From Oscillospiraceae bacterium (GTDB lineage Bacteria; Bacillota; Clostridia; UBA1381; UBA9506), in assembly GCA_015068615.1 (NCBI GenBank), contig SVKE01000006.1, positions 1 to 42,057 on the forward strand: a DNA stretch of 42,057 nucleotides, written 5' to 3'. This document shows positions 2,820 to 42,057 of the stretch, one piece after another. Each line of letters starts with the position of its first letter. Positions within the stretch are counted from its first letter, which is position 1. The position numbers were made by a program, and so were the translations under genes. The notes beneath the pieces were generated by a model that ran no database searches, was not told the DNA's origin, and was given only the letters and a program-made list of their open reading frames with translations.

Positions 2820-2873
2820 TTTTTATATTCCTTTCCCTTCGGCAGAGCTTGTCCTGCCTGATATATTGGCAAT

Positions 2874-2912
2874 AAAAAAAGCAAGACCGGCAAAAGCCGG
2901 CCTTGCTTTTTT
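2874..2912 (-). terminator. Intrinsic terminator between scfA and scfB (attenuator-like)
   Basis: Two 11-nt arms (2881-2891 and 2896-2906) pair fully on the minus-strand RNA if one G-U is allowed. The loop is four bases and seven T residues follow in the minus direction (A run at 2874-2880). The opposite side also has a T run, so it may work in both directions. Its position, 17 bp past the scfA stop and 54 bp before scfB, fits a partial terminator that makes precursor peptide more abundant than its enzyme. Confidence 0.85.
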
Positions 2913-2928
2913 GCTGCGTAAGCCGTGC

Positions 2929-3069
2929 TTAGGCTCTTTCGCACTTTTGATTGGCAACCGTGCAAGAGGTTTTGCAGGCAGACTGGCAAGAGGTCTGGCA
3001 CTCGCCGCAGCCGCCTTTTTTTGCGCTTTCCTTCAAGGTTCCCTTGGTGACAACTTTAATATGCTTCAT
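2929..3069 (-). CDS. scfA: SCIFF ranthipeptide precursor (six cysteines in forty-five residues)
   Basis: A 46-residue ribosomal peptide beginning MKHIKVVTKGTLKESAKKG. The C-terminal half holds six cysteines in the order CGEC, C, C, C, C ending in CERA. This is the hallmark of the SCIFF family, found across Clostridia and modified by ScfB to thioether (ranthipeptide) form. The ATG follows TAAGGAGG by 6 nt; that ribosome site overlaps the stop codon of the preceding membrane-protein gene, suggesting coupled translation. The mature function is unsettled in the literature, with quorum-type roles proposed for relatives. Confidence 0.95.
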   Translation of the reverse strand: MKHIKVVTKGTLKESAKKGGCGECQTSCQSACKTSCTVANQKCERA

Positions 3070-3081
3070 GTTGCTTCCTCC

Positions 3082-3507
3082 TTAGTATCGTTTTTTTCCG
3101 GCGGACAGGTTAATCCCCAGAATGCCGCCTGCTGCGCCGCCGAACAGGCCGATGGCCAGCAGAATCAGTATGTAGCTGTTAAAAAACATATCACCTGCAA
3201 ACAAGCAGGAAAAAATGTACAATAAAAGGACATAAATAATGCCAACCGCAGCTCCGGTCAAGTAGCCCTTGCCGGACACTCCCCTTGAGGCAATGATGCC
3301 GCCCGCCATAACGCTTATCACGGCGGTCACAATGGCGATAGCGGGGATGCTTTCCTCCGGCAGACCTGTATAGGTCAACAAAAGGGCGCATATGGCGAAA
3401 ATCGCCAGCGTAATGCCGAAGGCAATCGGCACGGCCTTTGCAAGACGCCGCCACAAAAGGCCGGCGCTGCTTGTATCCTTTACCTGTTTATATGCTTCGC
3501 TGTACAT
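3082..3507 (-). CDS. TIGR04086-type small membrane protein
   Basis: A 141-residue protein with about four hydrophobic segments separated by short glycine-rich turns and a basic C-terminus (SAGKKRY). It resembles the TIGR04086 family of clostridial membrane proteins of unknown function, commonly found between yajC and the SCIFF genes, which is its position here. The start MYSEAYKQ is chosen because GGAGG lies 7 nt upstream of it; an in-frame ATG two codons earlier sits too close to that site. It probably belongs to the yajC-scfA-scfB transcript. No catalytic motif is visible. Confidence 0.8.
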   Translation of the reverse strand: MYSEAYKQVKDTSSAGLLWRRLAKAVPIAFGITLAIFAICALLLTYTGLPEESIPAIAIVTAVISVMAGGIIASRGVSGKGYLTGAAVGIIYVLLLYIFSCLFAGDMFFNSYILILLAIGLFGGAAGGILGINLSAGKKRY

Positions 3508-38194: not shown

Positions 38195-38251
38195 GGTTGA
38201 CTCCTTTTGGTAAGATCATAATCAGTTTAGTGTATGATGTCTGCAGAAAGA

Positions 38252-38299
38252 ATATAATTAGGGGGAATGCAGTTTGCACTACACTCCCCCTAATTATAT
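38252..38299 (-). promoter_or_regulatory. Large inverted repeat in the prfA leader
   Basis: Arms at 38252-38266 (ATATAATTAGGGGGA) and 38285-38299 (its exact complement) enclose 18 bases. The predicted prfA transcript begins near 38286, so most of the stem would form at the 5' end of its leader RNA, about 60 nt before the ribosome site. There is no T run, so it is unlikely to be a terminator. Confidence 0.65.
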
Positions 38300-38321
38300 C
38301 ATATTGACAAACGCTTTGCAA
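38293..38321 (-). promoter_or_regulatory. Promoter of prfA
   Basis: On the minus strand TTGCAA (38316-38321) and TATAAT (38293-38298) are spaced 17 bp. It interlocks with the opposite mnmA promoter. Confidence 0.75.
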
Positions 38322-40733: not shown

Positions 40734-40769
40734 AAAAAATCCCCCCTGCTGATTCATCAGACAGGGGGG
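40734..40769 (-). terminator. Terminator of the accessory cassette
   Basis: On the minus strand a 12-bp stem with one bulge (CCCCCTGTCTGAT and ATCAGCAGGGGG) is followed by TTTTTT. It overlaps the last codons of the 123-residue gene. Confidence 0.82.
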
Positions 40770-41128
40770 AGTAGCTCCAGCGCTTCGGCCACCTGTCTTG
40801 CAAGACGGGTGCGGTACTGACTCCATGTACGCTTGCTGGCACCGGCATCGCGGCTCTTTTGGGCAAACATCAGCGAAAAATAAGGGTAGTTAAAAAAAGC
40901 GTGCAGGGCATCTAGACTCTCCGAGGTGCCGGGACGAAGAAGGTAAGCCTGCCGCGCTGTCTCCAGGGCTTCGGCAGCGGCCGCCCATTGCTGTGTCCGC
41001 TGTCGGCTGCCACTCCCTTTTGCATGCTTTCCGCACTCCATGTAATCACGAAAAATGTAAAAGATTTGCATGTAGAGATTATGAGGCAGGCCGGAGGGCT
41101 TTTCTTTTTTAAATTTGTAATGTCTCAT
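40757..41128 (-). CDS. Protein resembling phage late-transcription activators (RinA/ArpU-like), tentative
   Basis: A 123-residue basic, helical protein. LPHNLYMQIFYIFRDYMEC near the N-terminus and SKRTWSQYRTRLARQVAEAL near the C-terminus recall the layout of RinA/ArpU/DUF722-type phage activators, the second part looking like a sigma-region-4-like helix pair. This is a pattern judgement with no search behind it. Its ATG overlaps the stop of the Cys-rich gene (ATGA), so the two are co-translated. A terminator runs through its last codons. Confidence 0.65.
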   Translation of the reverse strand: MRHYKFKKEKPSGLPHNLYMQIFYIFRDYMECGKHAKGSGSRQRTQQWAAAAEALETARQAYLLRPGTSESLDALHAFFNYPYFSLMFAQKSRDAGASKRTWSQYRTRLARQVAEALELLPPV

Positions 41129-41298
41129 GCGCGCTCACCCGATGAGCGATAGTTTTTCGGTACGCCATAGCGTTCCCGGTCTTTTTTGTCCTGTTCCTTT
41201 GTTTTATAAAAAGAGCAAGGGCTGTGGCGGCAAATCATTTCTGTCATGACCGAACAGCGCCCTATTCGATAAGCAAAGCAATCCTTGTGAATCATCAT
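41125..41298 (-). CDS. Small cysteine-rich protein of unknown function
   Basis: A 57-residue protein with four cysteines (DCFAYRIGRCS, then ICRHSPCSFYKTKEQ), suitable for one zinc or cluster site, and a charged tail ending NYRSSGERA. Small clostridial proteins with a C-F-x-Y-R...C-S-F-Y-K-T pattern are familiar, but no function is known to me. The ATG pair at 41293-41298 has GGAGG 9 nt upstream. A longer open frame reaching 41547 is rejected since it is antisense to the XRE gene and starts upstream of the predicted promoter. Confidence 0.7.
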   Translation of the reverse strand: MMIHKDCFAYRIGRCSVMTEMICRHSPCSFYKTKEQDKKDRERYGVPKNYRSSGERA

Positions 41299-41406
41299 AT
41301 GATCAAACCTCCGTTTGTGATAAGCAGATTTTTGTCGTTCCCATCTGACGGGACGTTCATATGTGCCGAAAAAGGCATCGATATGAGCATCGTCAGAGGC
41401 TGTCAT

Positions 41407-41444
41407 TGTATACAAAAGCATGGTTTTAAGTTGCAAACCGCAAC
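41407..41444 (-). promoter_or_regulatory. Promoter with operator for the Cys-rich/RinA-like genes
   Basis: On the minus strand TTGCAA (41431-41436) and TATACA (41407-41412) are spaced 18 bp. The -35 hexamer lies within the dyad GTTGC-AAACC-GCAAC (41430-41444). The predicted leader is about 100 nt. Confidence 0.6.
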
Positions 41445-41488
41445 AAATAGTTGCAAAATTTAGTAAAAAACGAAACATTTTGTATGCC

Positions 41489-41698
41489 TCATTGGTCGGA
41501 AAAAAAGTATTCCATAATCTGTCCGCCGGGGATATGCAAAATATCACGAATTAATTCCACTTCCTCTAAGGTCATGTCAGAAATGTTTCGTATTTTGCGC
41601 CCCAGCGTGCTTGGAGACATCCCAACCAAATCTGCCAGACGTCCAAAAGTGAGTCCCTGTTCTACAATTTTTCCTCTTAGCTTGTTTGTGTTTACCAT
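41489..41698 (-). CDS. XRE-family regulator, phage-repressor-like
   Basis: A 69-residue single HTH domain: KLRGKIVEQGLTFGRLADLV, then GMSPSTLGRKIRNISDMTLEEVE, and a C-terminal segment (IRDILHIPGGQIMEYFFSD) typical of small phage-derived regulators. AAGGAGG is 9 nt before the ATG and the promoter is near consensus. The dyad GTTGC-N5-GCAAC between its promoter and ribosome site implies autorepression. Confidence 0.87.
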   Translation of the reverse strand: MVNTNKLRGKIVEQGLTFGRLADLVGMSPSTLGRKIRNISDMTLEEVELIRDILHIPGGQIMEYFFSDQ

Positions 41699-41719: not shown

Positions 41720-41734
41720 GTTGCGTTTTGCAAC
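41720..41734. promoter_or_regulatory. Operator dyad in the regulator's own leader
   Basis: GTTGC-GTTTT-GCAAC, the same arms and spacing as the site at 41430-41444, lying just after the predicted transcription start. Confidence 0.65.
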
Positions 41735-41741
41735 TGCATAA

Positions 41742-41770
41742 ATATTATCACAATGTACAGCTTTTGTCAA
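41742..41770 (-). promoter_or_regulatory. Promoter of the phage-like XRE regulator
   Basis: On the minus strand TTGACA (41765-41770) and TAATAT (41742-41747) with a 17-bp spacer. Confidence 0.83.
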
Positions 41771-41821
41771 TAGAATTTGTGACACATTTTGCAACATTTG
41801 TTTTAAATTTTCTTCAAAAAT

Positions 41822-41850
41822 GTTGCATTTTGCAAAAACTGTGGTATAAT
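41822..41850 (+). promoter_or_regulatory. Predicted promoter and operator firing into the tandem array
   Basis: TTGCAT (41823-41828) and TATAAT (41845-41850) are spaced 16 bp, the -10 lying in the first repeat unit. The -35 box sits inside GTTGC-ATTTT-GCAAA (41822-41836), a 9-of-10 match to the regulator's operator. Confidence 0.5.
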
Positions 41851-42057
41851 AAGCGCATACCGAATTAAAATTAAATAGGTTGCGCTTATTGCACCATAAT
41901 TTACCTTAAAAAGTTTAAAACGGAAAATTATGGTATAATAAGCGCATACCGAATTAAAATTAAATAGGTTGCGCTTATTGCACCATAATTTACCTTAAAA
42001 AGTTTAAAACGGAAAATTATGGTATAATAAGCGCATACCGAATTAAAATTAAATAGG
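41842..42057. repeat. Tandem array of identical 89-bp repeats, running off the window
   Basis: Two full identical units (41842-41930, 41931-42019) and 38 bases of a third (42020-42057) are present. Each unit contains an imperfect hairpin: TGGTATAATAAGCGCA pairs with TGCGCTTATTGCACCA (14 of 16), extended by ACC/GGT after a bulge, around an A/T-only loop apart from one G. A second weaker inverted pair TAATTT/AAATTA spans the rest. No variable spacers, no ORF. The total copy number is unknown. Confidence 0.95.

Follow-up and report, generated by a model that had tools for sequence, protein, structure and literature searches.

A perfect 89-bp tandem array at a contig end belongs to a family of short hairpin repeats seated at the -10 boxes of host promoters in uncultured gut Clostridia

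The window, the whole stretch of DNA that was analysed (42,057 bp), is an entire contig (C21) of the 1.32-Mb, 74-contig metagenome-assembled genome (MAG) of an Oscillospiraceae bacterium, and its last 216 bp (41842-42057) form a tandem array with a period of 89 bp and zero mismatches (2.43 copies), in agreement with a preliminary description of two full copies and a partial third. TRF run on the window returned a single row (41835-42057, score 432). The array is truncated at the right because the window ends where the contig ends, and its 216 bp equal 127 + 89, as would be expected from an assembly-graph loop at k=127, so its copy number is bounded only as at least ~2.4. The exact 89-bp unit was absent from every other contig of the same bin. 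The array was earlier taken for a recent tandem expansion, which we judge right, and for something other than CRISPR, which holds since the whole unit is repeated without spacers. The features of the locus are listed in Table 1.

Table 1. Features of the array locus in the window and sites of a second hairpin family
Feature	Position	Strand	Remarks
69-aa XRE/Cro-type regulator, divergent from array	41489..41698	-	present in 10/10 genus genomes
-35 box TTGCAT, host promoter	41823..41828	+	inside GTTGCATTTTG, kept in relatives
First extended -10 TGGTATAAT	41842..41850	+	TATAAT 41845-41850; 16 bp past -35
Hairpin unit 1, A type	41843..41895	+	GGTATAATAAGCGCA - core - TGCGCTTATTGCACC
RF02952-like full-length match, linker 1	41864-41939	+	38.5 bits; gathering 48.6
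Linker 1	41896..41931	+	arms extend pairing with next -10 box
Hairpin unit 2	41932..41984	+	same sequence as unit 1; TATAAT 41934-41939
Linker 2	41985..42020	+	same sequence as linker 1; RF02952-like match 41953-42028
Third box GGTATAAT and start of unit 3	42021..42057	+	contig end cuts unit 3
Second-family site, L080 (G006)	~2860-2970		
Second-family site, L075 (genome of the window, C57)	3171-3265		
Second-family site, L161 (G008)			prfA leader

Each unit contains a stem of ~21-22 nt per arm (AAATTATGGTATAATAAGCGCA / TGCGCTTATTGCACCATAATTT) whose sole break is an AT opposite a GC; the hairpin and this mismatch had been recognised as a 16-bp near-palindrome, an arm size that proved too short. 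RNA folding of copy 2 gave -29.0 kcal/mol (z = -6.7), with 0/200 shuffles equally good. The TATAAT of each unit, in the left arm, belongs to an extended -10 (TGGTATAAT), and the left flank of copy 1 reads AAAACTGTGG where the other copies have AAAATTATGG, a deviation due to this flank being host promoter and not repeat. Direct reading of the 89-bp unit on its + strand showed neither of the attC cores GTTRRRY and RYYYAAC.

The 69-aa regulator scores below the Pfam cut-offs for HTH families and matches the phrog_3 repressor (E 4.5e-7). By sequence it is thus the repressor-like HTH protein that had been called a phage-like neighbour, but the gene is conserved in 10/10 genus genomes, in several of which it shares a contig with prfA, so that nothing points to a prophage. 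Behind it lie two short ORFs of 123 and 140 aa (40757-41547), neither of which matches Pfam; the longer one matches phrog_27214 (function unassigned in PHROG). All 9/9 other genus genomes have an empty locus with the same divergent layout, the GTTGCATTT promoter and no unit, and their element-free promoters carry a -10 at the same place as the start of the array, where the first box holds the host promoter position. In these relatives the empty promoter leads to a ~210-aa gene with an XRE-type HTH. Since the array begins at exactly the relatives' -10, synteny indicates that the missing right-hand gene, just past the contig end, is most likely this conserved ~210-aa XRE-type regulator, in line with the earlier expectation of a functional unit continuing rightward. 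Between the two divergent HTH genes (41720-41840) are recurring, genus-conserved GTTGCNTTTTGCAAC-like sites, one of which overlaps the -35 of the array promoter; they are likely operators of XRE regulators.

The array belongs to a widespread family of short hairpin repeats in uncultured gut Clostridia that had not been characterised before. Its units are arranged as TGnTATAAT - hairpin - linker hairpin - TGnTATAAT, so that n units carry n+1 extended -10 boxes, and the units are non-coding and ~89-103 bp long. The genome of the window holds 27 matches, with ~14 further loci that are often mosaic arrays, in which three hairpin cores (A, B, C) are combined with two linkers (ACAAATTACC..GGAAATTTGT and GGTGTGTAGCAAGCCG..CGGCTTGCACTTA); a -10 box, almost always TGnTATAAT, precedes every hairpin, and most are followed by a linker and then another box. 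BLAST with one array located the family in 22/61 genomes of relatives, and a pattern search found it in 21/95 genomes of the order (7/27 genera), with 0 matches to the reversed control pattern in the same 95 genomes. Copy numbers across the order range from high in G029, G043, G023, G006 and G000 to zero in G009, G010 and G020. All genomes compared are draft MAGs, and the relatives with names come from the gut, among them RGIG5569 (sheep colon) and SIG457. Near-identical units occur across species (97% over 110 bp between the genome of the window and G003). Among 2.9 million viral contigs the pattern matched 18 times, and none of these matches, when inspected, could be identified as belonging to the family. 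Like MITEs, the units are short, non-coding, dispersed and multi-copy, and as terminal inverted repeats they have RARYRCA / TGYRYTY arms that pair in nearly all of the 130 units of a curated set.

This curated set (130 units with flanks, 12 genomes) places the family at promoters. The next ORF is faced by 111/130 units, with 16 opposite and 3 at contig ends; several of the 16 exceptions reflect small ORFs that were falsely called or overlooked, and ORF-calling errors explain L009 (ferredoxin) and L081 (phoH) at the least. A -35 at the proper distance (>=4/6 matches) precedes the first box in 64% of units vs 14% with shuffled upstream sequence (mean score 3.80/6 vs 2.52/6), as against 3% of internal boxes, all 32 of which are extended -10 boxes. 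First boxes are therefore host promoters, and internal ones are not classical promoters. The TTG of the right arm was considered as a -35 and rejected, since 39-42 bp separate it from the following -10, a spacing much too wide for a normal promoter. Two roles proposed in the preliminary description, a repeated small RNA and an iteron- or centromere-like array, were not upheld; the boxes are promoter -10 elements before ordinary genes scattered round the chromosome.

Occupied and empty versions of the same promoter were found at other loci as well. One C unit sits at the parA promoter (TTGAAA-17-TATAAT in both the genome of the window and G003) and a four-unit array at the clpC promoter, each in the genome of the window only, and two A units sit at the prfA promoter in G006 only. 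In clpC unit 1 the left arm is GAATACA, the sequence of element-free G003, and the right arm still fits GAATGCA, a mismatch which suggests that the insertion junction lies within the left arm. The ychF promoter has a single degenerate unit in G044, and in G043 a matching unit plus an extra one upstream; these sequences read as the addition of a new unit on the upstream side of an older one. The prfA leader in the window (38195-38320) carries an unrelated -10 hairpin (GATATAATTAGGGGGAGTG..CATTCCCCCTAATTATATTC), and in G001 the same place is taken by an almost perfect inverted copy of the promoter (~27 bp), suggesting that copying from a host promoter can happen.

Covariation was assessed on 33 aligned units. 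Standard pairs make up 97.8% of the -10 hairpin and 96.6% of the linker hairpin, with 27 and 58 double-change cells, respectively, vs 9.7 and 15.2 after shuffling; 0/500 shuffles reach either hairpin's count, and shifting the partner destroys both signals. The two hairpins share ATTGnAnC and are mutually exclusive. The compensating arm changes proposed as a check were thus found in strength in both hairpins, the opposite of degenerate copies in relatives lacking such compensation. The G opposite T(-10) is retained in 130/131 family units; avoidance of an antisense promoter accounts for this only in part, as half of the units still have TACAAT on the other strand. With shuffling stratified within genomes as the null, the host base before TATAAT agrees with its right-arm partner in 75/96 first units (vs 64.3, P = 0.00005) and with the end box in 66/82 (vs 57.0, P = 0.0003). 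This excess is unlike the random landing of a ready-made element and calls for a contribution from local duplication or templated repair. Pairing may guide the choice of sites; otherwise the host promoter must serve in part as the template for the arm and end box. No clean target-site duplication beyond the TGnTATAAT box was seen at the loci inspected, and some loci disagree.

The linker has a relative in Rfam. Positions 1-76 of the 76-nt model of RF02952 (dfrA-dnaX RNA) align to the linker plus the next -10 box with a score below the gathering threshold (Table 1), and the model itself ends, like the repeat linker, in TGATATAAT, the consensus terminus UUAUGAUAUAAU being an extended -10 as in the repeat. 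Matches occur at 11 places in the genome of the window, 14 in G006 and 5 in G003, those checked sitting at repeat units, and none occur in 14 control genomes; a search of 391 genomes of the class returned nothing at E 0.001 under strict filters that missed the genome of the window too. We regard RF02952 as probably a relative of the repeat linker and do not claim membership. Rfam describes an sRNA, whereas here the match makes up one half of a DNA repeat that bears promoters, a hint that one of Rfam's curated families may represent a stretch of promoter DNA rather than an RNA.

From the dispersal, orientation, exact -10 placement, empty sites, n+1 grammar and covariation of the units, we think it fairly probable that this is a MITE- or BOX-like, promoter-bearing mobile repeat that enters host promoters at the -10 and expands in tandem. 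A unit would consist of a hairpin with an extended -10 in its left arm, followed by a linker hairpin ending in another -10, and would enter the host promoter precisely at the -10 box. The host -35 and one -10 would stay at the left and the right end would supply a second -10, so that promoter function is kept and the 5' UTR merely lengthened; with the -10 copied at both ends, the repeat could spread without breaking the promoters it enters. Further units would join or duplicate in tandem, and the resulting arrays, with n+1 boxes for n units, would be mosaic or, as in the window, homogenised, and in the window the units would have entered the divergent promoter of the conserved XRE-type regulator gene past the contig end. 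We infer that the dispersal is transposition-like, with movement by an enzyme acting in trans; promoter function presumably survives insertion, the internal boxes would be weak promoters, and the elements would be mainly selfish. A more tentative proposal, which we hold rather unlikely, is that the units are mobile cassettes integrating exactly into the -10 of active promoters as a safe-harbour strategy, perhaps through the single-stranded DNA of an open complex, with recognition partly by right-arm pairing and the promoter rebuilt at both ends.

The main rival dispenses with mobility: template switching at the promoter, a known source of hairpins (PMC8794818), would copy the -10 region in inverted and direct orientation, slippage would amplify it, and gene conversion would make loci similar. 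The prfA promoter, with different hairpins per species (including the inverted host-promoter copy of G001 and the unrelated hairpin in the window), speaks for this, as does the locus-by-locus agreement of arm, end box and host base. However, the same cores and linkers stand before unrelated genes and across species at up to 97% identity, and template switching would erase the nearly invariant G opposite T(-10). We thus consider it unlikely as an account of the family, and local template switching probably shapes the arms.

A selected regulatory leader, in which tandem hairpins and boxes serve as an RNA or DNA switch, would make use of the pairing of ATTGnAnC with either the left or the right -10 box, giving two exclusive and covarying hairpins, and would fit the curation of a linker relative as an RNA family (RF02952); the functional unrelatedness of the downstream genes, the orthologous genes of close relatives that lack the element, and the varying copy number at one locus make it quite improbable. 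Hairpin pairs, dispersed intergenic copies and the GTAG-like start of one linker hairpin recall a REPIN-like element moved by a RAYT/Y1 transposase, and we know of no REPINs that are promoter-oriented. The transposase search covered PF01797 alone, which had no match in the copy-rich G000, G006, G023, G026, G029, G043 and G044; a RAYT origin is therefore unsupported and, as far as MAGs allow, largely refuted, so that we give it hardly any credence. The reading we retain is the promoter-bearing mobile repeat, taken as non-autonomous.

Promoter-bearing MITEs, structured interspersed repeats and mobile promoters are already known. BOX elements are modular and variable in copy number, and we are aware of no promoter placement among them. 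Those of Streptococcus pneumoniae are structured interspersed repeats, presumed parasitic, that probably affect co-transcribed genes (PMC3049150); the present repeat is likewise structured and interspersed and differs by its promoter seating. Correia elements of Neisseria are short non-autonomous inverted repeats with sigma-70 promoters, mostly upstream of genes, and, compared by description only, differ in that precise insertion at a host -10, n+1 arrays and paired linker hairpins are not described there (PMC10969869). BrickBuilt of Porphyromonas gingivalis is a MITE that has promoter activity and contains a tandem repeat (PMC4596501), differing in its 23-bp repeat, bidirectional promoters and 19 copies in a single strain of one species. 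The putative mobile promoters of Matus-Garcia et al. 2012, short promoter sequences re-used before unrelated genes (as cited in PMC8049555), are a statistical class, unlike a defined repeat family; here too, the same promoter sequence appears before unrelated genes. Base-exact seating at a host -10 with boxes on both sides has, to our knowledge and in the literature searched, not been described. A family seated in this way, with the promoter intact and n+1 growth, offers a testable case of a host-sparing selfish element, and a natural series of 1 to n copies for the evolution of 5' UTRs and promoter copy number.

A second hairpin family, unrelated in sequence (TATAATTNGCATA ... TATGCNAATTGACGGCG), shares this grammar and also sits at -10 boxes; here too the right arm places ATTG opposite TAAT (sites in Table 1). 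In the genome of the window, Gut-1 RNA (RF01706) was also found above threshold, beside a tRNA at the end of contig C48 (L011, 3792-3856).
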